25,260 nt of DNA from a virus: the IMG/VR virus record IMGVR_UViG_3300046501_000109, positions 1 to 25,260 of that record. One strand, written 5' to 3'. Shown here in pieces: positions 4,391-23,368 of this stretch. Numbering within the stretch: the stretch's first letter is position 1; each line of letters begins with the position of its first letter. The notes under the pieces are model-generated. The model saw only the letters and a list, made by a program, of their open reading frames with translations. It was not told where the DNA came from and did not search any database. A program made the translations under genes and the position numbers.

Positions 4391-4915
4391 ATGGGCAGGG
4401 CAGTTAGCAAGGCCGACTTAAGCGAGATCGTCGGTCGTGATGAACGCACCCTGACCCGATGGCAGAACGACGGCATGCCTGTGACCGAGTTCGGCCTCGG
4501 TCGGGGCAACGAAAACCAATACGACACCGAAGCCGTGATCCAGTGGCTGATGCATCAAGCTGCACTCAACGGCAAAAAAGAATCTTCCCGTGACCGTCTC
4601 GACCGGATCCGCGCTGATCGTGAAGAACTCGCGATGGCCAAGGATCTTGGCGAGGTGGTCATCGCTGCTGATTTGATCGAACGCTTCGAAGCAATGATCA
4701 CCGCTGCAAAAGTGGAGCTGCTCAACTCTTTCCCCGATGTACTGGCCGCCGAACTCTCAGCGCGCTACGACGTGGAAGTCGACGAGCAACTGATTCGCGA
4801 CCCCATTGAAGCCATCCTGAGGAGGCTTTCTGACTATGACAAGGATGATGCCGCGTCAGATGGATATTCTGACGAACCGGACGATACGGAGGGCTTTGAG
4901 GAAGACGGCGACTAA
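4391..4915 (+). CDS. Terminase small subunit, Nu1 family
   Basis: This 174-residue protein (lambda gpNu1 has 181) probably binds the cos region and recruits the large terminase subunit to start DNA packaging. The N-terminus (about 5-35: SKADLSEIVGRDERTLTRWQNDGMP) is the winged helix-turn-helix of the Nu1 family, which contacts cosB in lambda. The middle (about 65-115) is a charged helical dimerisation region (RDRLDRIRADREELAMAKDLGE), and the C-terminus is very acidic (DDAASDGYSDEPDDTEGFEEDGD-like), where the large subunit would dock. AAAGGA lies at 4379-4384 before the ATG. The 3' end overlaps the large subunit gene by 80 bases in another frame, a tight coupling typical of terminase pairs. 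The preceding spacer is the likely binding target. Confidence 0.88.
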   Translation: MGRAVSKADLSEIVGRDERTLTRWQNDGMPVTEFGLGRGNENQYDTEAVIQWLMHQAALNGKKESSRDRLDRIRADREELAMAKDLGEVVIAADLIERFEAMITAAKVELLNSFPDVLAAELSARYDVEVDEQLIRDPIEAILRRLSDYDKDDAASDGYSDEPDDTEGFEEDGD

Positions 4916-6848
4916 AGCGCTGCGCGGCGCTTGCCGCAAATGGGCGCCGCCGCCTCGCATGAGCATTATCGAGTGGGCGGACAAGTACCGCTGGCTCGCA
5001 CCGGAAGAGGCTGCGCGCCCCGGAAAATATCGCTTTGACGTTACTCCTCACCTGATCTGGCCCGGCGGTCCATTGGAAGCGCTGGATGATCCCGCTGTCA
5101 GTGAGATCGTCGGACGCAAGTCGGCGCAGGTGGCATGGACGTCGGGTGTTCTGGGTAACGCCCTGGGCAAGTGGATCGACATTGATCCGTCACCGATTCT
5201 GGTTCTGTTTCCCAAGGCCGAAGCGGCCAAGCAGTACGTTGGTGAAAAGCTTGAGCCGATGATCGAAGCCACGCCGCGGCTGCGCAAGAAAGTCGACCTG
5301 CGAAGCCGCAAGTTGCAGCAGCGACAGGACTTCAAGCGTTTCCCCGGCGGCTTCCTGAAAATGGTGGGTTCAAACAGCCCGGCCAGTGTGAAGTCCACGC
5401 CGGTGCCACGCGTTGCCATTGAGGAGCCGGACGACTGCAACCTCAACCTGCGCGGTCAGGGCGATAGTATCAAGCTGGCCAAGGAACGTCTGAAAACGTT
5501 CCGCCGCTCGAAGATCATCATCGGCGGTACACCGACCATCAAGGGCTTGTCCGCCATCGATGCGGAGCTGGAACTTTCGGATAAGCGCGTCGGCCTGGTG
5601 CCATGTCACGAATGCGGCCAAGAACACGCGTTGAGCTTCGACAACCTGCACTGCGACGAGGATCCGGAATACCTGCATGAGGTATACGGCAAGAAGCGGC
5701 CGGAGAAAACGTTCTACTCCTGCCCGCATTGCGGTGGAGTCTGGGATGACAACCAGAAAAACGCCAACCTCAAGCACGGTCGCTGGTCGGCTACGGCAGA
5801 GTTTCGTGGCATCGCTGGTTACATCCTCAACGAGCTGTATGCGACGTTTTGGGGATCGCGTTTCCAGGTGCTGATGGAGAAAAAGCTCCAGGCCGAACAC
5901 GCGGCCTCACAAGGCAACATCGGACCGATGATCGCTTTCGTCAACAGTTCCAAGGGCGAAAGCTACGAGTATCAGAGCGATGCACCGAAGACCGATGAGC
6001 TGGAAAAGCGTGCGGAGCCTTATGCGGAGCTGACAGCGCCGAAAGGTGTCCTGCTGATCACCGTTGGCGTTGACGTCCAAGGCGACCGCCTCGCTCTCAC
6101 CATCATCGGTTGGGGACGAGGCGAAGAGTCGTGGCGCTTGTACTGGGGTGAGCTTCACGGCAACCCCATCGATCCCCATGACGCCGTTTGGCAAGAACTG
6201 GATCGGGTTATTTCTCAACCCATACCGGTCGAAAGCGGTGCACAACTGGCGGTATCGGCGGTCAGCATCGACAGCTCTGACGGCAATACCAGTGACGCTG
6301 TGTATGCCTACGTGCGGGATCGTCAACGCTACAACGTTATGGCGATCAAAGGCGCCTCTATCGACAGTCGCGACAAGGAGATCTTTACCAAGCCTCCGCA
6401 GTCGGTGGATACCTCACAGGACAACACCAAGGCTGCGAAATACGGCCTGCGAGTCCACATCGTCGGTACGCACAAAGCGAAGACGCTCATTGATGGGCGG
6501 CTGCGCCTCAAAGGTGCTGGACCGGGGCGCATGCATTGGTACAGCGAGATCCGCTCGGACTACTACGAGCAACTCACCAACGAAGTCCTGGCACCGCACC
6601 CACGTAACCCCAGCAAAATGGTTTGGCAAAAGAAAGCCGGCCGTCGCAACGAAGCGCTGGATTGCGAGGTGTATGCCTTGCACGCGGCTCGCAGCCTGAA
6701 AACTCATCTGTTACGCGATCACGAATGGGACCAGTTGGAGCAGCAGTTGCTGCAGCCAACCCTGTTCAGTACCGAACAACCGGTCGCACCGGTACCGCGC
6801 CGAGCTGTCGCTCGTGGGCGGGGCACCCGCAGTCGCGCGGGCTATTAA
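4836..6848 (+). CDS. Terminase large subunit, GpA family (packaging ATPase/nuclease)
   Basis: This 670-residue protein (lambda gpA has 641) cuts concatemeric DNA at cos and pumps it into the prohead. Near the N-terminus is the adenine/Walker A-like motif K95-SAQVAWTSG, equivalent to KSARVGYS in lambda; the Walker B acidic pair is E196-E197 in RVAIEEPDD. A probable zinc ribbon has C257/C260 (CHECG) and C296/C299 (CPHCGG). The C-terminal nuclease domain begins with VGVDVQGDR, where D413 and D417 are candidate metal ligands, and ends with a basic tail (RRAVARGRGTRSRAGY) that could contact DNA or portal. The start ATG at 4836 has GAGGAGG about 9 bases upstream; ATGs at 4845, 4848 and 4860 are alternatives. 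It follows the Nu1-like gene and precedes gpW, as in lambda. Confidence 0.93.
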   Translation: MTRMMPRQMDILTNRTIRRALRKTATKALRGACRKWAPPPRMSIIEWADKYRWLAPEEAARPGKYRFDVTPHLIWPGGPLEALDDPAVSEIVGRKSAQVAWTSGVLGNALGKWIDIDPSPILVLFPKAEAAKQYVGEKLEPMIEATPRLRKKVDLRSRKLQQRQDFKRFPGGFLKMVGSNSPASVKSTPVPRVAIEEPDDCNLNLRGQGDSIKLAKERLKTFRRSKIIIGGTPTIKGLSAIDAELELSDKRVGLVPCHECGQEHALSFDNLHCDEDPEYLHEVYGKKRPEKTFYSCPHCGGVWDDNQKNANLKHGRWSATAEFRGIAGYILNELYATFWGSRFQVLMEKKLQAEHAASQGNIGPMIAFVNSSKGESYEYQSDAPKTDELEKRAEPYAELTAPKGVLLITVGVDVQGDRLALTIIGWGRGEESWRLYWGELHGNPIDPHDAVWQELDRVISQPIPVESGAQLAVSAVSIDSSDGNTSDAVYAYVRDRQRYNVMAIKGASIDSRDKEIFTKPPQSVDTSQDNTKAAKYGLRVHIVGTHKAKTLIDGRLRLKGAGPGRMHWYSEIRSDYYEQLTNEVLAPHPRNPSKMVWQKKAGRRNEALDCEVYALHAARSLKTHLLRDHEWDQLEQQLLQPTLFSTEQPVAPVPRRAVARGRGTRSRAGY

Positions 6849-6858
6849 GGAAACACAC

Positions 6859-7074
6859 ATGACAGACGCACAACAGCGCCTCGCGGAAGTCCGGGCGGCG
6901 ATCTCTGACGTCCTGAAAAAAGGCCAGCGCCTGCGCCGTGCGGATCGCGAGCTTTATCGCGCTGAGCTGAACAGCTTGCGTCTTCTGGAGCAGCAGTACG
7001 CCAGAGAGGTCGCGTTGGAACAGGCTCAACAACAGGGACGTGGCCGCAACCGCGTCTCCTACATGAAGATCTGA
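6859..7074 (+). CDS. Head-to-tail joining protein, gpW family
   Basis: This is a small protein of 71 residues (lambda gpW has 68) that plugs the portal after packaging and makes the surface to which FII and the tail bind. The family signature is the N-terminal helix (TDAQQRLAEVRAAISDVLKKGQ), a short beta hairpin region (RLRRADRELYRAELNSLR), and a second helix (LEQQYAREVALEQAQQ). The ATG at 6859 follows AAGGAAACAC, 10 bases after the terminase stop; a more upstream start in the same frame would lie inside the terminase gene. Position between terminase and portal is exactly that of lambda W. The basic Gly/Arg tail is typical. Confidence 0.9.
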   Translation: MTDAQQRLAEVRAAISDVLKKGQRLRRADRELYRAELNSLRLLEQQYAREVALEQAQQQGRGRNRVSYMKI

Positions 7075-7076
7075 CT

Positions 7077-8687
7077 ATGGGATTTTTTCGAAAAGACCCG
7101 GCCGAGCTGCTGATGCGCGAGGCCCTCAAACTCGCCAAGTCGGCAAACGAGTCCAAGCCTATCGTCGCCCAAGGGGGCGGAGGCGGTGTTGAGACGAGAT
7201 GGCGCGGGGCTTCTCGCGTACTGCGCAGCATGGCCAGCTGGATTCCCGGTCTTGGCAGTCCGCGTCGAGATCTCGACCAAAACGAGCGTCGAATGCTGGT
7301 TGCTCGCTCGCGAGACGCCATGCGCAATCACTTGATAGCCCGTGCGGCGATCACGCGCTTGCGCACCAATGTTGTAGGAACCGGGCTGGTTTGCCGGTCA
7401 CAGATCGATCATGACGCATTAGGTCTCGACGAGGCGCAGGCTGAGAAAATCAACAATCAGCTTGATCGCTTGTGGTCGTTATACGCCGATGATCCACGCG
7501 AATGCGATGCCGAAGCGACACTCAACCACTACCAGTTACAAGCACTGGTATTGATCTCGTCCATGGTGGGTGGTGACGTGCTGATTGCCAGTCCTGACGA
7601 TGAGCGCTCCGGCTGCATTTTCAGCACGCGCTTGCAGTTGATCGAATCGGACCGGGTCTGCAATCCAGCCGGGCAACTGGACAGTGCAAACCTCGTGGAC
7701 GGTGTCGAGTTCGACCGGCTGGGGGCGCCGCTGGCGTATCACGTCTGTACCGGATACCCCAACGAATACACCGCCGGCCAGGCGCTTAAATGGGAGCGTC
7801 TGCCAGCCTTTGGCGAGGCCACGGGCCGGCGCCGCGTCATGCACGTCATGGCCGACAAGGAGCGTCCGGGACAAAAGCGCGGAGCGCCTTACCTGGCACC
7901 GGTACTGGAACCGTTGCAGAAGCTGGAGCGCTATAGCAGCGCCGAGCTGATGGCGGCGGTGATCTCCGCAATGTTCACGGTGTTCATCAAAAAGACCAAC
8001 GACTTTCAAGTCGGGAATCTCCCGCTGACCGCATTAGCCAACGAAGGCGACGGTCCCGCAGGTGACACAACGGCTGACGGCGAACTGGCTCTGGGCGAGG
8101 GGGCAATTGTTGACCTGGGCCAAGGTGAGGAACCGGTAATCGCCAATCCCGCGCGGCCTAATGCGCAGTTCGATCCGTTCTTTACGGCAGTGGTGAAGGA
8201 AATCGGCGCCGCTTTAGAGCAACCGATGGAAGAGCTGTTGCTCCACTACAGCAGCAGCTACAGCGCAGCCCGTGCGGCGATGTTGCAGGCGTGGCGCTTT
8301 TACAGCCTGCGACGCTGGTGGTTGATCTGTGACTTTTGCCAGCCCAGTCGTGAATTGCTGATCGATGAGGCAGTGGCCCGAGGACTGATCAATTTGCCGG
8401 GTTATGCGGATCCTGCGAAACGCAAAGCCTACTGCCAGGCCATCTGGATCGGCCCCGCGCGGGGCGCCATTGATGAGCTGAAGGAAGCCAACGCTGCCGG
8501 TAAGCGCATCGAGATTGGCGTCAGCAACGAAACGCTGGAAACCGCCGCAATGACCGGCGAGCCGTGGCAGCAGGTGTATCGGCAGCGCGTGCGCGAAGTC
8601 ACCCAGCGGCGCAACGATGGCCTGCACGTTTTACCCAAAGGGCGGGAGCAGGAAACACCGCCGTCCGCCAACCCCAACGAGGAGTAA
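7077..8687 (+). CDS. Portal protein, lambda gpB family
   Basis: This 536-residue protein (lambda gpB has 533) forms the dodecameric ring at one vertex of the prohead through which DNA enters and leaves. It shows the lambda portal family pattern: conserved N-terminal block NERRMLVARSRDAMRN with AAITRLRTNVVGTG, the IESDRV motif about residue 195, and the C-terminal helical block with EELLLHYSSSYSAARAAMLQAWR. The C-terminus is polar and probably disordered; in lambda the homologous N-terminal part is trimmed by the gpC protease. It starts 3 bases after the gpW stop and ends 2 bases before the protease start, in the canonical W-B-C order. I see no frame disruption. Confidence 0.94.
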   Translation: MGFFRKDPAELLMREALKLAKSANESKPIVAQGGGGGVETRWRGASRVLRSMASWIPGLGSPRRDLDQNERRMLVARSRDAMRNHLIARAAITRLRTNVVGTGLVCRSQIDHDALGLDEAQAEKINNQLDRLWSLYADDPRECDAEATLNHYQLQALVLISSMVGGDVLIASPDDERSGCIFSTRLQLIESDRVCNPAGQLDSANLVDGVEFDRLGAPLAYHVCTGYPNEYTAGQALKWERLPAFGEATGRRRVMHVMADKERPGQKRGAPYLAPVLEPLQKLERYSSAELMAAVISAMFTVFIKKTNDFQVGNLPLTALANEGDGPAGDTTADGELALGEGAIVDLGQGEEPVIANPARPNAQFDPFFTAVVKEIGAALEQPMEELLLHYSSSYSAARAAMLQAWRFYSLRRWWLICDFCQPSRELLIDEAVARGLINLPGYADPAKRKAYCQAIWIGPARGAIDELKEANAAGKRIEIGVSNETLETAAMTGEPWQQVYRQRVREVTQRRNDGLHVLPKGREQETPPSANPNEE

Positions 8688-8689
8688 CC

Positions 8690-9922
8690 ATGCCCCGTGC
8701 ATTCGAGCTGGCTGCATCGCAGCCGTGGCTGATGCTGCCCGGCGCCCTGGATAATTTGCTCACCATTGCAGACCGCATGGGCGATCCGGCGGCGCTGGAA
8801 ACACGCACCGGCATGCGACTGGATAACAGCCGCACTGTCAGCGTACGCAATGGTGTGGCGATCATCCCGGTAGTCGGTCCGGTGTTTCGCTATGCCAACC
8901 TTTTCACCGAGATCAGCGGCGCGACCAGCACTCAGGTGCTGGCCACCGACCTGCAGACCGCGCTCGATGATCCCAAGATCAGCGCGATCATCCTCAACAT
9001 CGATAGCCCAGGCGGCGTTGCCGCCGGCATTAACGAACTGGCTGACCAGATCCATGCGGCCCGTGACCGTAAACGCATCGTTGCCTACATCGGCGGCACT
9101 GGTGCAAGCGCGGCCTATTGGATTGCGTCAGCTGCCAGCGAAATCGTCATCGACGAAACGGCGCTCGCCGGGAGTATCGGTGTGGTCGTTGAAGCTGTGG
9201 TCGGCGGCGAGGAAAGCAACGGCCGCAAGCGCTATCAGATCGTCAGCCGCAATGCTCCGAACAAGCGTGTAGATCTCTCTACCGAAGAAGGGCGGGCCAA
9301 AGTCGGCGAAACGGTCGATGCCATGGGCGATGTGTTCGTCGCCAAGGTAGCTCGCAACCTGGGCGTGGAGCCGGAGCGTGTCCCAGAGATGGGCGACTTC
9401 GGCGGCCTGCGCGTTGGCGCCGCGGCTGTCGAGTCCGGCTTGGCCCACCGTCTGGGGTCGCTTGAAACATTGATTACCGAACTGGCCAAACCGGCCGCCA
9501 CTCAACCGAGGAAATACAACATGACCACCGTCAGCAGCACGGCGGAGTTGCGTGAGGCGCTGGCCGCCGGCACGGATCCGCAATCCATCGAAATCGCTCA
9601 GGCGAGCCAACCGGATCTCGAAAGCATCCGCACCCAAAGTCGCGAGGAAGGCGCTACTGCAGAGCGGCAACGCATCACTGGCATCAATGCCATGGCCAGC
9701 AAGGGTTTCGAAACTGAAATCGCCGCTGCCATCGAATCAGGCACCACAGTTGAAGCTACAGCGCTACAGCTGTTCAAGGCTGCGCAGGATCGCGGCATTT
9801 CCCTTAACGCCATCAAGGCCGACGCCACTGGCGCGTCGACGTCCACTCCAGTGGGCGATGCCGCTCAGGGTGAGCGCAAGGCCGTCGTAAACGCCATCGT
9901 CGAGGGCGCCTCGCGCCGCTGA
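8690..9922 (+). CDS. Capsid maturation protease, S49 family (gpC-like), with C-terminal scaffold
   Basis: This is a 410-residue protein (lambda gpC has 439). The first 270 residues form an S49 (SppA-like) serine protease domain: DSPGG at 105-109, the nucleophile S140 in GGTGASAAYW, and a likely general base K192 in NAPNKRVD. The 52-residue spacing between Ser and Lys equals that reported for lambda gpC (S166/K218) and Bacillus SppA, which supports the dyad. The remaining 130 residues are a helical, charged scaffold domain (residues 278-410) that also has its own start. The enzyme should process scaffold and portal in the prohead. The ATG at 8690 has GAGGAG just upstream. A different, longer reading from 8564 lies inside the portal gene and is rejected. 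Confidence 0.92.
   Translation: MPRAFELAASQPWLMLPGALDNLLTIADRMGDPAALETRTGMRLDNSRTVSVRNGVAIIPVVGPVFRYANLFTEISGATSTQVLATDLQTALDDPKISAIILNIDSPGGVAAGINELADQIHAARDRKRIVAYIGGTGASAAYWIASAASEIVIDETALAGSIGVVVEAVVGGEESNGRKRYQIVSRNAPNKRVDLSTEEGRAKVGETVDAMGDVFVAKVARNLGVEPERVPEMGDFGGLRVGAAAVESGLAHRLGSLETLITELAKPAATQPRKYNMTTVSSTAELREALAAGTDPQSIEIAQASQPDLESIRTQSREEGATAERQRITGINAMASKGFETEIAAAIESGTTVEATALQLFKAAQDRGISLNAIKADATGASTSTPVGDAAQGERKAVVNAIVEGASRR
9521..9922 (+). CDS. Nested in-frame scaffolding protein, Nu3-like
   Basis: An internal ATG at 9521, in frame with the protease gene, has GAGGAA at 9508-9513, an ideal ribosome-binding site. It would give a separate 133-residue protein identical to the protease C-terminus, as lambda Nu3 does within C. 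The product is polar, Ala/Glu-rich and helical (TAELREALAAG, EEGATAERQRITGI), as expected of a scaffold on which the capsid assembles. The call rests on the start signal, gene arrangement and family precedent; expression is not shown. It ends with the protease gene and is followed by the decoration protein. Confidence 0.72.
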   Translation: MTTVSSTAELREALAAGTDPQSIEIAQASQPDLESIRTQSREEGATAERQRITGINAMASKGFETEIAAAIESGTTVEATALQLFKAAQDRGISLNAIKADATGASTSTPVGDAAQGERKAVVNAIVEGASRR

Positions 9923-9934
9923 TTGGAGAATTTC

Positions 9935-10285
9935 ATGAGCAACCCAGAACGCCAAACCTATGTCCCGGACCAACTGTCCGCCGGTGCCTTCCCGGTGATG
10001 ATCGACACCGCCGTGATCGCTTCCGGCCAGAAGCTCAGTCGCGGCGCCGTCCTTGGGCAAATAACGGCCAGTGGCGAATACGTGCTGTGCAAGGCCGCAG
10101 CAACCGATGGCTCCGAAGCTCCTGCGGCGGTACTGGATCAGTTCACTGATACGACCTCAGGCGCGCAGGTAGCGCCAATCCGCCTGACCGGTGAAGTGCT
10201 GGCCAGTCAACTCACACTCGGCGAGGGTTTTACTTTGGCGCAGGCAAAAGCTGCGCTGCGTTCCCTGTGCCTGTTCGTTCGTTAA
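9935..10285 (+). CDS. Head decoration protein, gpD family
   Basis: This is a 116-residue protein (lambda gpD has 110). Trimers of this family sit on the outside of the expanded capsid and stabilise it against DNA pressure. The sequence shows the family pattern: flexible N-terminus, then a beta-rich fold with LSRGAVLGQITASGEYVLCK, EAPAAVLDQFTD and VAPIRLTGEV. The ATG at 9935 is preceded by TGGAGAA; a TTG 12 bases upstream in the same frame is less likely. It lies between protease/scaffold and the major capsid gene, as in lambda. Confidence 0.92.
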   Translation: MSNPERQTYVPDQLSAGAFPVMIDTAVIASGQKLSRGAVLGQITASGEYVLCKAAATDGSEAPAAVLDQFTDTTSGAQVAPIRLTGEVLASQLTLGEGFTLAQAKAALRSLCLFVR

Positions 10286-10298
10286 TTCGGAGTCTTTG

Positions 10299-11327
10299 AT
10301 GGATATTTTTGATACCCGCACCATGCTTGAAGCGGTTGAGCAGATGCCAACCGCGCGGCGCTTTTTGCTGAACACCTTTTTCAACGGCGGCAGTCCTGTC
10401 ACGTTCCCGACCAAAACCGTGGACATCGACATCATCAAGGGCAAACGCAAAATGGCGCCGTTTGTTAATCCGCGCCTGCCGGGCAGTGTGTCGTTGCGTG
10501 AAGGCTATACCACCAGCACTTACAGCCCGCCGTACATTCAGCCAAAACGTGAGACCACCGCCGAGCTGGTGCTCAAACGTTCGGCCGGCGACAACCCGTT
10601 TTCCTCACGCACACCGCTGGAGCGTGCCGGGCAATTGCTCGGTAAAGACCTGCGCGATCTGGACGACGAAATCATCCGCCGGGAAGAGTGGATGTGCGCC
10701 CAGGCACTCACCACCGGAAAGGTTCGCGTCGTGGGAGAAGGGGTGGATGACACCATCGACTTCCTGATGGCCAGCGATCACAAGATCAGCCTGGGCAGCG
10801 GTCAGTGGGGCACCGAAGGCGGCGACCCGATTGCCAATCTTCGTAGTTGGAAGCGCAAGATCGCCAAGGATTCCGGCCGCACGGCAAACACCGTAGCCAT
10901 GAGCGGCGAAGCGCTGGACGCATTTCAATCCAGTGCTGCAGTGATGAAACAACTCAACACTCGCCGCGTTGACATGGGCTTGATCAAGCCCGAAGAACTC
11001 CCGGACGGTGTGACCTATCTGGGTTACCTGAACGATCCCGGTGTCGATCTCTATGGTTACGACGAGTGGTATCTGGACGACGAGGATGACGAGCAGCCAA
11101 TGATTCCGGCAGGTGGCTTGATTCTCGGCTCGACGTCCACGCGTAACGCCATGCTGTACGGGGCGATTCAAGATCTGGAAGCCGTGGAAAGCGGCTTGGT
11201 CGAAGCGGCGCGCTTCCCGAAGAGTTGGGTGACCCAAGAGCCGAGCGCTCGTTGGCTGAAGCTGCAGAGTGCGGCATTGGCTGGCCTGCTTGAACCGGAT
11301 GCGTTCATTTACGCCAAGGTGGTGTGA
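10299..11327 (+). CDS. Major capsid protein, lambda gpE family
   Basis: This 342-residue protein (lambda gpE has 341) builds the HK97-fold icosahedral shell. The N-terminus (FDTRTMLEAVEQMP with RRFLLNTFF) and the following block (TVDIDIIKGKRKMAPFVNP, SLREGYTTSTYSPPYIQPKR) are the conserved lambda E-family signatures, including the E-loop segment. The C-terminus (PSARWLKLQSAALAGLLEPDAF) is likewise typical. The ATG at 10299 has CGGAG upstream; an upstream ATG at 10191 lies within the decoration gene and would not be used. Unlike HK97, gpE-type shells rely on decoration protein instead of covalent cross-links, consistent with the gpD gene upstream. Confidence 0.94.
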   Translation: MDIFDTRTMLEAVEQMPTARRFLLNTFFNGGSPVTFPTKTVDIDIIKGKRKMAPFVNPRLPGSVSLREGYTTSTYSPPYIQPKRETTAELVLKRSAGDNPFSSRTPLERAGQLLGKDLRDLDDEIIRREEWMCAQALTTGKVRVVGEGVDDTIDFLMASDHKISLGSGQWGTEGGDPIANLRSWKRKIAKDSGRTANTVAMSGEALDAFQSSAAVMKQLNTRRVDMGLIKPEELPDGVTYLGYLNDPGVDLYGYDEWYLDDEDDEQPMIPAGGLILGSTSTRNAMLYGAIQDLEAVESGLVEAARFPKSWVTQEPSARWLKLQSAALAGLLEPDAFIYAKVV

Positions 11328-11328
11328 C

Positions 11329-11547
11329 ATGGCCAAGAGAGCCGATTTTCTGGTGATCGACGGTTGCGTGCAGGATGGCCGCGTCGTTGTTGTGAAGGGC
11401 GAGCCTTACAGTCCTCCAAGTAAAGGGATTGAGGAAGCGTTACTCGCCGAAGGGCGTATCGCTCCGCTCAAGGACCCCCGAGCCCAAGAATTGCTGCGCC
11501 AGAAATCGGGCGTTGCCAATGAGGACGACGACAGCGGCGGTGAGTGA
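11329..11547 (+). CDS. Small protein at the FI position, function unknown
   Basis: A 72-residue protein I do not assign to a family. It starts 1 base after the capsid stop and its own stop overlaps the ATG of the next gene, so it is translated as part of the head operon. It has a basic N-terminus, a beta-rich first half (RADFLVIDGCVQDGRVVVVKGEPY), a short helix and a very acidic tail (EDDDSGGE). Its place between E and FII is that of lambda FI, a head assembly factor, but no sequence similarity to FI is apparent to me. A structural or assembly role in the head is likely from context alone. Confidence 0.75.
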   Translation: MAKRADFLVIDGCVQDGRVVVVKGEPYSPPSKGIEEALLAEGRIAPLKDPRAQELLRQKSGVANEDDDSGGE

Positions 11548-19419: not shown

Positions 19420-19923
19420 ATGATTCCTCAGACTTTGTACAACACCAACCTGTTCGTCGACGGCGTGAACTTCTCCGGCGACGTGCCCAGCCTGACGCTG
19501 CCCAAGCTGACCACCAAGACCGACGAATATCGCGGGGGCGGCATGGCCGGCCCCATCGAGATGGATCAGGGGCTTGAGAAAATGGAAGCCTCGTTTGTCA
19601 CCAAGGGCGTGCGCCGCGAGTCGCTGAAGTACTTCGGCCTGGCTGACGGCACGGCGTTCAACTCCACGTTCCGTGGTGCCTTCAAGGGCCAAAAAGGTGC
19701 GGTGACAGCGGTCGTTGCCACCCTGCGCGGTCGCCTCAAAGAGGTCGATCTTGGTGATTGGAAAGCTGGTGATGCTGCCGAGATCAAACACGCCGTAGCG
19801 GTCACTTACTACAAGCTCGAAATCGACGGGCGCCTGATGTACGAAATCGACATGGTCGCCGGCATTCAGGTGATCGAAGGCACAGACCAACTGCTCGAAG
19901 TGCGCAACGCGCTCGGCCTGTAA
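19420..19923 (+). CDS. Major tail tube protein FII
   Basis: This is a 167-residue protein (P2 gpFII has 172) that stacks as hexamers to form the rigid inner tube. Family features: LYNTNLFVDGVNFSGDVPSLTLPKLT at the start, the EYRGGGMAGPIEMDQGLEKMEASF block, a beta-rich middle, and the end KLEIDGRLMYEIDMVAGIQVIEGTD. The gene starts 13 bases after the sheath stop with AAGGGGG upstream, and the next gene begins 13 bases after its own stop. The order FI-FII-E-T is that of P2. Confidence 0.95.
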   Translation: MIPQTLYNTNLFVDGVNFSGDVPSLTLPKLTTKTDEYRGGGMAGPIEMDQGLEKMEASFVTKGVRRESLKYFGLADGTAFNSTFRGAFKGQKGAVTAVVATLRGRLKEVDLGDWKAGDAAEIKHAVAVTYYKLEIDGRLMYEIDMVAGIQVIEGTDQLLEVRNALGL

Positions 19924-19936
19924 GGAATAGATCCAG

Positions 19937-20536
19937 ATGACTCAAGCAATCGCTAAAAACCTGCCGGCCTGGCTGTCGCTCAGTGCAGTCGGTGCCGTCG
20001 TAACGCTGACCCGCCCAAGCCAAGCCAACAGCATCGACGTCGAGACGTTGAACCTGCGTAACCCGACCGTGCGTGAAGTGCGCGCGGCTGATCGTGCTGC
20101 CAACGGCGATGATGAACAGCGCGAACTGATGCTGTTCGCCGGTCTGGCCGAAGTCGGACTGAAGGATCTGGAAGGCCTCAAACTGACGGATTATCGCCGC
20201 GTGCAAACGGCGTATTCGCACCTGGTACCGAAAACCGATTATTCGGACTCGATGCCGGCGTGGTTGTCGCTGACCACCGATCAGGTGCTGGTAACGCTGT
20301 CGTGTCCGAGTGAAATCAACGGCGTGACCGTCGACAAGCTGCCCTTGCGTTCGCCGACTGTGGGCGACGTGCGAGCGGCAAACCGTGAAGTGGGTGGCGA
20401 TGATGAGCAGCGCGAGCTGGTGTTGTTTGCTGCATTGTCCGGTGCGCCTGTCGCGGATCTGGAGGGGCTGAAGCTGGTGGATTTTAACCGCTTGCAGGCC
20501 GGCTATTTTCGCATGGACAACGACGACGGGCTTTAA
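19937..20536 (+). CDS. Tail assembly chaperone E (P2 E / Mu gp41 family), tandemly duplicated
   Basis: This is a 199-residue protein, about twice the usual size of the family (P2 gpE has 91). It keeps the tape measure protein soluble and guides tube assembly. The protein is two copies of one domain: residues about 10-94 (AWLSLSAVGAVVTL, LRNPTVREVRAADR, DDEQRELMLFAGL, DLEGLKLTDYRRVQTAY) and about 110-193 (AWLSLTTDQVLVTL, LRSPTVGDVRAANR, DDEQRELVLFAAL, DLEGLKLVDFNRLQAGY). Both copies look intact. The gene ends at CTT-TAA-C, a possible slip site into a following open frame (E'). It lies between the tube and tape measure genes, the position that defines these chaperones. Confidence 0.88.
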   Translation: MTQAIAKNLPAWLSLSAVGAVVTLTRPSQANSIDVETLNLRNPTVREVRAADRAANGDDEQRELMLFAGLAEVGLKDLEGLKLTDYRRVQTAYSHLVPKTDYSDSMPAWLSLTTDQVLVTLSCPSEINGVTVDKLPLRSPTVGDVRAANREVGGDDEQRELVLFAALSGAPVADLEGLKLVDFNRLQAGYFRMDNDDGL

Positions 20537-20648
20537 CCCCAGCGTGATCAAGTCGGCAGCAAAACGTCTGGCGGCGGAAACCGGATTTTCCGCCGCTGAG
20601 ATCCAGTCGATGCCGTTCGCGGATATGGTGTGGTGGCTCACGGATTGA
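20531..20648 (+). CDS. E' extension, probably made by ribosomal frameshift from E
   Basis: After the E stop codon an open frame in the +1 (equal to -2) register runs to TGA at 20646-20648 and encodes 37 residues from 20535 (SVIKSAAKRLAAETGFSAAE, then QSMPFADMVWWLTD). The second half resembles the short GpE' tail family (AEL..MPL.EL..W type). The -1 frame closes at 20547, so it cannot be used. No ribosome-binding site precedes the only internal start (GTG 20544). The likely product is a 236-residue E-E' fusion made by slippage of CTT to TTT at 20531-20536. In P2, lambda and Mu an extended chaperone is made by frameshift at this place; the site here is inferred. Confidence 0.6.
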
Positions 20649-20686: not shown

Positions 20687-23368
20687 ATGGCAAACAAAAT
20701 CGCCCTCGGGCTGGTGATCGGCGGTGCCGTCAGTTCCACGGTCGGCGCCGCGTTCAAGGACGTGACCGGGCGCATTAAGCGCCTCGAGGCAGAAGGCAAC
20801 AAAGCGCGCGTGCTGCAGCGCACGATTGGCGACACCATCCGCCTGCGCGAAGAATGGAAAAAGGCTCACGACACCGGCGCGGCTGGTGCGTCCAAATTAC
20901 TCAACCGGTTGAACTCGAACCTCGACAGCCTGAAAAAGCAGGGGATCGAGGTCGGCCGGCTGGAAAAAGCCTATCGCTCTATGGGGCAGACGGCCAACAA
21001 GGCCGAGCTGAAAGCCAAGGGTCATCAGCAGATTGATTCTGGCGTAAAGGGCATGAAGGGCACTGTCGGTGCGGCGGTGGTCGGTGTCGGTGCCATGGCG
21101 GTACCGACCAAGGTCAGCGCTGATTTTGGCGCGATTGTGCGTGACATCGCGATCAAGGCCGGCATTGCCAACAAGCCGCAAGAACAGGAAATGTCGCGAA
21201 AGATCATCGACACTTCACGCGATACCGGCATGGCGCGCAACGATGTGGCCGACGTGATCAATCAGTTGGTCGGCGCCGGCATGGACTTGAGCAAGGCGCT
21301 GGAATACGCGCCTGTCGCGGCCAAGTTTGTCGTGGGGCAGGGATCCAGCGGTGTCGACACGGCGAAGATGATCAACGCCCTGGGGCAGAACGCCAAGATC
21401 ACCGACCCCAAGCAGATGCAGCAGGCGCTGGAGGCGATTGCCTACCAAGGGCAGGCGGGCAGCTTTGAAGCGGCCGACATGGCCAAGTGGTTCCCGGAAC
21501 TGCTGGCCAACATGGCCAGCAACGGAATCACCGGCTTGGATGCGGTGACCCAACTGGGTGCCATGCTGCAGGTGCAGATGAAGCAGGCCGGCAGTTCGGA
21601 CGAGGCGGCCAACAACCTGAAAAACTGGATGGGCAAAATCGGTTCGACCGATACCGTCAAGGCTTACGAAAAAGCCGGGATTGATTACAAGGGATCGATG
21701 CAGACCGGTTTGCAAAACGGCATGTCGACGCTTGAGACCAGCATGGCGCTGGCTCAGAAATACATTCAGGCGACCGATCCGAAGCGTGCGGCGAAAATGG
21801 CTGAGGCCACGGCAAAAATCAGCAAGGAAGCCGACCCGGAGAAGGCCAAGGCCATGATGGCCTCGCTGGAAGAATCCCTGCGCACCGGCGACCTGTTCGC
21901 CGACATGCAGGTCAAGGCCGCACTGTCGGCCTACATGCAGAACAAGGCGCTGTACAGCCAGCTCAAAAACGATTCGCGTGACGCGACCGGGATCCTCGAC
22001 AAAAACCTCGCCGAGCGGCGCGAGTCGTCATCGCAGAAATGGGCGGAAATGGCCCAGTCGATGGATGACGCCATGCGCAGCATCGGTGATGCGCTGCGCC
22101 CGGTGACGGACACCGTGGCCGAGTCGTTGACCAAGGTTACTAAAGGCATTACGTCGCTGACGGATAGCGCGCCCGGGGTGGTTGCCGGTATCGCCACGGT
22201 CGGGGCGGGGCTGATCGCCTTAAAGGGTATCTTCAGCACGATCAAGATCAGCAAGGGGCTGCTAAACCTTGCGCGTGGGGCGCGCGGTGGCAGGAATGGG
22301 AGCGAAGCCCCAAATAAAAACCCCGGGGAACTTGATCTGGTAGCGACTGGCCTGGATGTTGTTTCACGGGTGAAAGACGCGGCAACAGGCGGTGGCCTTG
22401 GTACTGAAAGTGGTGCAGGTAACGATGGCGTCAAGAAGGTTTTCGTCGTCAATGCCGGCGCTATGGGTGGCGGTGTGGATGCGTCGGGCGAATCGCGCCG
22501 ACGTGGACGTGGGTCAAGGCGCAGCGCTCGGCGCCGGTCGTTGCCGAGTTCGAGAGGTCCTCGCCCATCTGTGCCTCGTCCACCTGTTCCGGTTTCACAT
22601 CCATCTGTTCCGGTTTCACGGCCACCCGTTCCGGCTTCGCGTCCCCCTGTTTCGATCCCGGCGCCATTAGTCCCTTCTGTTCCAAGTGGGGCATTGTCCA
22701 AGCTCGGCGTCGTCGCCGAAACAGTCGGTAAGGTCAGCAAGGCGGCCAAGGTCATTCCTGGCGGCACGCTGCTGGAGTCCGGCGCGATGGCTTTTGAAAC
22801 CTTTCAAAACGCCAAAACCAAGAACGAAAAAGCCGAAGGTTACGGTTCGGCCGCTGGCAACCTGGCCGGCACCATGGCCGGCGCAGCAGCTGGGGCCACC
22901 ATTGGTTTGATGGTGCCGATTATCGGCCCGGCCATCGGCGGCTTGATCGGTGCTTACCTGGGCAGTCAGGGCGGTGCGGTGCTGGGCGGGTCGTTGGGTA
23001 AGTCGTTGTTCGGTGACGAGGATGAAAAGCCCGAACAAACGGCAAAGGCGCCGGTGCCGACCACGCCGCTCATGTTGATGTCAGCGGCGCAGCAAGGCCC
23101 GGTGTTGGGGGATGTCGCGCGCTCGATGGCGGTGACGGCGCCGCTCAAGTCGGCGGCGCTGGCCATCCAGCCCAAGGAGGCGGCGAAGCCGGAGCCGGCC
23201 AAGGTGGATCAGCAGTTTCAGTATTCACTGAGCATGCCGGTGACCGTGCAGGGCGATGTCAAAGATCCGCAAACCTTGGCGCAGGATCTGATGCCGCACA
23301 TGCAGCGAATGATGGCAGACGCGGCAAGGAGTAACGCCGCCAAGCTGTACGACGAACCCCATGTCTAA
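20687..23368 (+). CDS. Tape measure protein (gpT-like)
   Basis: This 893-residue protein (P2 gpT has 815) sets tail length and passes DNA into the cell. The N-terminal 120 residues are helical and charged (VTGRIKRLEAEGNKARVLQ, LREEWKKAHDTG). Residues about 140-440 contain the conserved tape-measure core (FGAIVRDIAIKAGI, NDVADVINQLVGAGMDLS, FEAADMAKWFPELLANMASNG, LGAMLQVQMKQAGSSDEAANNL). Hydrophobic segments lie at about 123-140, 495-515 and 728-770. Between them is an unusual Arg-rich stretch (about 604-620) followed by proline heptad repeats (626-658). The C-terminus is polar. The ATG at 20687 has GAGG upstream. It follows the chaperone E/E', as expected. Confidence 0.93.
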   Translation: MANKIALGLVIGGAVSSTVGAAFKDVTGRIKRLEAEGNKARVLQRTIGDTIRLREEWKKAHDTGAAGASKLLNRLNSNLDSLKKQGIEVGRLEKAYRSMGQTANKAELKAKGHQQIDSGVKGMKGTVGAAVVGVGAMAVPTKVSADFGAIVRDIAIKAGIANKPQEQEMSRKIIDTSRDTGMARNDVADVINQLVGAGMDLSKALEYAPVAAKFVVGQGSSGVDTAKMINALGQNAKITDPKQMQQALEAIAYQGQAGSFEAADMAKWFPELLANMASNGITGLDAVTQLGAMLQVQMKQAGSSDEAANNLKNWMGKIGSTDTVKAYEKAGIDYKGSMQTGLQNGMSTLETSMALAQKYIQATDPKRAAKMAEATAKISKEADPEKAKAMMASLEESLRTGDLFADMQVKAALSAYMQNKALYSQLKNDSRDATGILDKNLAERRESSSQKWAEMAQSMDDAMRSIGDALRPVTDTVAESLTKVTKGITSLTDSAPGVVAGIATVGAGLIALKGIFSTIKISKGLLNLARGARGGRNGSEAPNKNPGELDLVATGLDVVSRVKDAATGGGLGTESGAGNDGVKKVFVVNAGAMGGGVDASGESRRRGRGSRRSARRRSLPSSRGPRPSVPRPPVPVSHPSVPVSRPPVPASRPPVSIPAPLVPSVPSGALSKLGVVAETVGKVSKAAKVIPGGTLLESGAMAFETFQNAKTKNEKAEGYGSAAGNLAGTMAGAAAGATIGLMVPIIGPAIGGLIGAYLGSQGGAVLGGSLGKSLFGDEDEKPEQTAKAPVPTTPLMLMSAAQQGPVLGDVARSMAVTAPLKSAALAIQPKEAAKPEPAKVDQQFQYSLSMPVTVQGDVKDPQTLAQDLMPHMQRMMADAARSNAAKLYDEPHV
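22562..22660 (+). repeat. 21-bp tandem repeat encoding proline heptads in the tape measure gene
   Basis: The repeat has a 21-base period encoding RPPVPVS, HPSVPVS, RPPVPAS and RPPVSIP (22577-22660), preceded by a partial RPSVP unit (22562-22576). Units are similar but not identical at base level. It can change length by slippage and is in frame. Confidence 0.85.

Follow-up and report, generated by a model that had tools for sequence, protein, structure and literature searches.

The window, i.e., the whole stretch of DNA analyzed here, is a virus record of 25,260 bases. Its head genes are lambda-like (terminase gpA, lambda-type portal, S49 protease, and capsid E), and its tail is of the P2-like contractile type, the tail module having the order sheath, tube FII, E, E', tape measure, gpU, and gpD. 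A lambda-type head module and a P2-type tail module are therewith combined within one element (window positions 4836–11336). The two chaperone domains of E form a tandem duplication, the halves being 48% identical; P. protegens-type relatives (L018–L026) have a single chaperone domain with the same junction. The tape measure protein contains a proline-rich repeat, RPPVPVSRPP, around residues 600–660, and its length is 893 residues, compared to 947 in one relative (L008). The features of the E/E' region are listed in Table 1.

Table 1. Features of the E/E' junction and of the adjacent tail genes (window coordinates)
Feature	Position	Strand	Details
Tail tube protein FII	19420..19923	+	PF04985, E=1.7e-58; neighbor upstream of E
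Gene E, tail assembly chaperone, 199 aa	19937..20536	+	Two tandem Phage_TAC_7 domains, PF10109, E=1.1e-38
E-site codon TAT of the slip cassette	20504..20506	+	TAT 244 / TAC 32 among 276 junctions
Proposed +1 slip site TTT_C	20507..20510	+	tRNA-Phe from TTT (20507–20509) to TTC (20508–20510); TTT_Y in 277/277
A-site codon CGC at the slip	20510..20512	+	CGC/CGT/CGA, or CTG/TTG in relatives
Doubly coding overlap	20511..20533	+	Frame 0, end of E; frame +1, AWTTTTGF of E'
E' extension, 45 codons and stop TGA	20511..20648	+	+1 frame; fusion E(1–191)–E' predicted to have 236 aa
E stop TAA	20534..20536	+	Ends the unshifted product; position differs among relatives
Tape measure protein	20687..23368	+	PF10145, E=3e-24; neighbor downstream, expected client of E/E–E'

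Gene E ends with GGG-CTT-TAA-C (CTT at 20531–20533, TAA at 20534–20536), as given in the initial annotation, whose reading of the frames also holds: no stop interrupts the +1 (or -2) frame between 20472 and the TGA at 20646–20648, and the -1 frame is closed by a stop at 20545–20547. Its assignment of E and E' to a tail chaperone pair is borne out by the double occurrence of Phage_TAC_7 in E, and its suggestion that a shift to the +1 frame joins E to E' is supported by the conservation of that frame in relatives. Two overlapping frames lie between the tube (PF04985) and tape measure (PF10145) genes; the product of the upstream frame is a member of a known chaperone family (PF10109, Phage_TAC_7); and the downstream frame is coding and conserved, with no conserved start of its own. 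By the features tested, E/E' appears to be a tail assembly chaperone frameshift pair of the same kind as G/GT and E/E+E'.

A query with E only fetched 105 loci, 25 from genomes and 80 viral (two of them, L079 and L088, end early at a contig end); in these loci the +1-frame E' is retained, and the stretch from the E stop to E' contains no indel. Changes counted by parsimony on a single FastTree tree of 276 distinct aligned junctions amount, for the E' region, to 707 synonymous vs. 528 non-synonymous ones in the +1 frame; the corresponding ratios for the two alternative frames are 101:1169 and 150:1140. As the synonymous excess is confined to the +1 frame, E' appears to code in this frame only, and the substitution pattern confirms it as a real protein-coding extension, beyond what is expected by chance. 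Searches of Pfam, PHROGs, and NCBIfam with E' yield no real match. E' is present in 116 of the 400 genomes of Pseudomonas species searched, from which 80 further stretches were read; a class-wide search of 369 genomes finds E' in the seed genome only, so that, at this sensitivity, the +1 class does not seem to extend beyond Pseudomonas and close relatives. One locus (L330) was left out as a chimera: its positions 106–1647 hold an in-frame fusion of E' with a portal-like reading frame, which probably remains from a recombination event.

All 277 distinct Pseudomonas junctions have TTT followed by a pyrimidine in frame 0, either at the codon 24 nt upstream of CTT or at the one next to it. Many of the loci were gathered using a profile in which the first +1-frame residues are included, hence a mild ascertainment bias in the figure of 277/277; the 105 loci from the E-only query agree with it. 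The codon following TTT is CGC in 216 junctions, CGT in 47, CTG in nine, TTG in three, and CGA in two. TTC is seen at the slip codon in none of the 277 distinct junctions, while another column of conserved Phe has TTT 146 times and TTC 121 times, with 36 third-position changes. Synonymous frame-0 changes number 26, 28, and 15 at codons -3, -2, and -1, respectively, and zero at TTT. In some relatives (L236, L326–L333) the motif is shifted one codon downstream (ACC/AAC_TTT_CTG; TAC_ACC_TTT_CTG), and TTT_C is kept. The codon preceding the slip codon strongly prefers TAT (244 of 276), compared to 47 TAT and 130 TAC among 177 at another Tyr column, a bias suggesting that the E-site codon plays a role.

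The conserved UUU with its pyrimidine stands where the +1 frame becomes conserved (277/277), i.e., 24 nt ahead of the CTT codon and before the E stop, a feature absent from the initial annotation. Directly after the slip codon, the +1 frame has an invariant Trp TGG (276/276), while the frame-0 codon over it varies between CTG, ATG, TTG, and GTG (Leu, Met, Val). The segment mean of synonymous frame-0 changes is 30.4 per codon upstream vs. 9.5 in the overlap. The share of GAT among frame-0 Asp codons decreases from about 51% upstream to 3–4% in the overlap; a GAT at these positions would alter the residue encoded in the +1 frame. Synonymous to non-synonymous changes in the +1 frame are 50:134 in the overlap vs. 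202:1639 in the part preceding the site (Fisher p=1e-8, uncorrected for phylogeny). Dual coding by itself also lowers the amount of change in the overlap, hence, the exact slip codon is derived mainly from the onset of +1 conservation and from the invariance of TTT_Y. These two, combined with the dispensability of the stop described below, point to TTT (20507–20509), rather than the stop, as the place of the frame change.

On comparative sequence evidence, which is the source of all support here, the Pseudomonas prophage very probably makes a second tail-assembly helper by a +1 slip at UUU_C, from UUU to UUC on tRNA-Phe. A single message would yield a P2-type tail assembly chaperone in two lengths, E being the short form and E–E' the long one. 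Most ribosomes would terminate at TAA 20534, yielding E of 199 aa; in a minority, with tRNA-Phe on UUU in the P site and the Arg codon CGC in the A site, the tRNA would slip +1 onto UUC, its pairing remaining perfect, and the ribosome would read the +1 frame to 20645. The product would be a 236-residue E–E' fusion with the tryptic junction peptide LQAGYFAWTTTTGFNPSVIK. By analogy with lambda G/GT and P2 E/E+E', the systems in which the function of this frameshift group was established, both forms may serve to coat the tape measure protein and to recruit the tube protein. We infer the slippage, its direction and rate, and the function of the fusion; what the relatives show is the conserved site, the +1 frame conserved from there on, and a stop that can be dispensed with.

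The initial annotation placed the shift at the end of E, as a prfB-like slip at CTT-TAA-C, in which Leu-tRNA on CUU would move to UUU while the release factor is slow at UAA or UGA; the junction peptide would then be MDNDDGLNPSVIK. CTT with a stop is the commonest ending of E (185 of the 277 junctions), but across related junctions CTT-TAA-C is not strictly kept, though E' is. The last codon may be GTT, ATT, TTT, CTG, GTG, or others; the stop may be TAA, TGA, or TAG; and its distance from the +1-frame TTC is +26 nt in 263 junctions and +20, +41, +53, or +68 in others. Two relatives (L322, L323) have an earlier TGA, so that CTT-TAA would never be reached by ribosomes, and retain both E' and the upstream TTT_CGC. 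In another (L336; OQ658366, a P. aeruginosa tail-only cluster) there is no E stop at this place, and TAC_TTT_CGC and E' are retained. Judged by these relatives, the E stop is dispensable for E', and the prfB arrangement of a slip codon directly before an in-frame stop is not preserved. The +1-frame residues F-[ND] account for the NTT-TRA-C ending itself. Given also that +1 conservation begins upstream of CTT, a stop-triggered slip is not supported and seems very improbable.

The second element of the prfB type, a Shine–Dalgarno-like stimulator 3 nt upstream of the slip, is not seen either: anti-SD pairing upstream of the site (-3.7 kcal/mol vs. -4.3 kcal/mol for synonymous recodings, with -8.7 kcal/mol for a prfB-like control) gives no sign of selection or enrichment for such an element. 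No conserved RNA structure is found downstream of the site (z -0.87, no covariation). CGC constitutes 70% of Arg codons in these genes, which gives no obvious reason for a slow A site. The gene prfB (RF2) resembles the site described here in the +1 direction of the shift, and its codon before the slip is also UAU; the difference is that the putative site at TTT_C needs no stop codon and has no Shine–Dalgarno-like element.

The frame of E' could also be reached by a Mu-like -2 slip at or near TTT, with one extra residue and the junction peptide LQAGYFFAWTTTTGFNPSVIK, and Mu does use -2 in the equivalent gene (PMC5009743). In this case, however, tRNA-Phe would re-pair on ATT, ACT, CCT, or similar, and the codon before TTT varies (TAT, TAC, ACC, AAC, ACG, CGC), whereas re-pairing after a +1 step always meets a perfect Phe codon, TTY; we give the -2 slip only a slight chance. 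Similarly doubtful is translation of E' as an independent gene from a start such as GTG 20544, perhaps used by reinitiation after the E stop. This GTG is 7 nt past the stop in the window, and GTG is seen at the homologous position in 87 of 276 junctions, but most relatives, near-identical ones included, have GTT or another codon there. In 122 of 276 junctions the +1 frame has no ATG, GTG, or TTG before E' residue 13; a Shine–Dalgarno motif is in place in almost none; and conservation reaches upstream of any start. The initial annotation had itself named a separate E' gene with a start and ribosome-binding site in homologues as the case against a frameshift, and no conserved start is observed among the 276 junctions. 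Transcriptional slippage on the T run, yielding a shifted mRNA, can be practically dismissed, as the four T seen in most members (TATTTTC) are only three in 30 of 276 (TAC_TTT_C, ACC_TTT_C, and similar), which is too short.

Among known systems to be compared with the proposed +1 slip at TTT_Y, P2 E/E+E' has the same gene order, tube–E–E'–tape measure; its E' is similar in size and position and aligns weakly (hhalign E 1e-3), and E likewise belongs to PF10109 (Phage_TAC_7: E, 41 or 14), the family of P2 gpE. The differences are that P2 has an annotated -1 shift in a T run, as opposed to +1 at TTT_Y, and that P2 E' matches PF06528, while E' of the Pseudomonas +1 class does not. An X_XXY_YYZ site for a -1 shift, as in P2 and lambda, does not fit the junctions, with E' in the +1 frame in all 277 and, in the window, the -1 frame closed at 20547. 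Burkholderia phage Mica also has a tape measure chaperone E of PF10109 and a homologous E' (hhalign probability 95.6%), but there E' is in the -1 frame, as an annotated frameshift product, the likely site, read from the sequence, being A_AAT_TTT. With homologous E' reached by -1 in Mica and probably by +1 here, the frame seems to have switched while the product was kept. The same Pseudomonas genomes contain a second PF10109 class with a T run (TTTTTTC) at the end and E' in an open -1 frame, i.e., classical P2-like; it is seen at loci L453, L457, L463, L472, L474, and L478. One genome (G001) has both classes, the +1 type and the -1 T-run type.

Influenza PA-X has UUU_CGU as its established +1 site (PMC3498833). 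Influenza A PA-X and amalgaviruses share with the site here the identical P/A cassette UUU_CGN, the +1 step from UUU to UUC, and the lack of obvious stimulators (PMC3498833, PMC5052127); they differ in having eukaryotic ribosomes and unrelated genes, and CGU is rare there, while CGC is common here. Bacterial UUU_Y +1 sites, according to a review (PMC5009743), are those of argI, YopN–TyeA, and a rhizobial ICE, i.e., the same +1 site on bacterial ribosomes in different genes; the YopN–TyeA hybrid survived disruption of its UUU site (PMC3789692). The statement of the initial annotation that published tail chaperones use -1 or -2 only is correct for -2 in Mu, but incomplete, as +1 cases have been published for tail genes: HSTV-2 among the tail-product shifts in the same review (PMC5009743), and the tail shaft genes of Listeria phages, as well as SPP1 (PMC3498833).

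Frameshifting in tail chaperones is thus already known, and so is UUU_Y itself, from bacteria and influenza PA-X; what would be new is the choice of UUU_Y for this purpose. The literature covered, largely journals readable without subscription, yielded no report of a phage tail gene with a UUU_CGN +1 site, and the site is probably new for phages. We lean slightly towards a broader generalization from the same junctions, namely, that a whole lineage of contractile tails in Pseudomonas, phages and tailocins, may use +1 at a minimal UAU_UUU_CGY in place of the usual -1, with no need for a stop, Shine–Dalgarno-like element, or RNA structure. If this is true, a programmed +1 site of the UUU_CGN type with deep conservation would be known for the first time from a phage, and the influenza cassette would have arisen independently on bacterial ribosomes. 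The switch between -1 and +1 would provide a natural system for studying how the direction and rate of a shift are set, and the natural variants in hundreds of relatives make the rules of +1 slipping on bacterial ribosomes testable.

Ordinary gene calling misses the predicted E–E' protein, which matters for work on engineered tailocins. An example is the P. aeruginosa tail-only record mentioned above, where the short frame alone is listed as a gene. The respective region (OQ658366.1, 5390–8659, "Pseudomonas phage sp.") carries tail, holin, and fiber genes, an unannotated E', and no annotated head genes; this cluster looks like an R-type tailocin.
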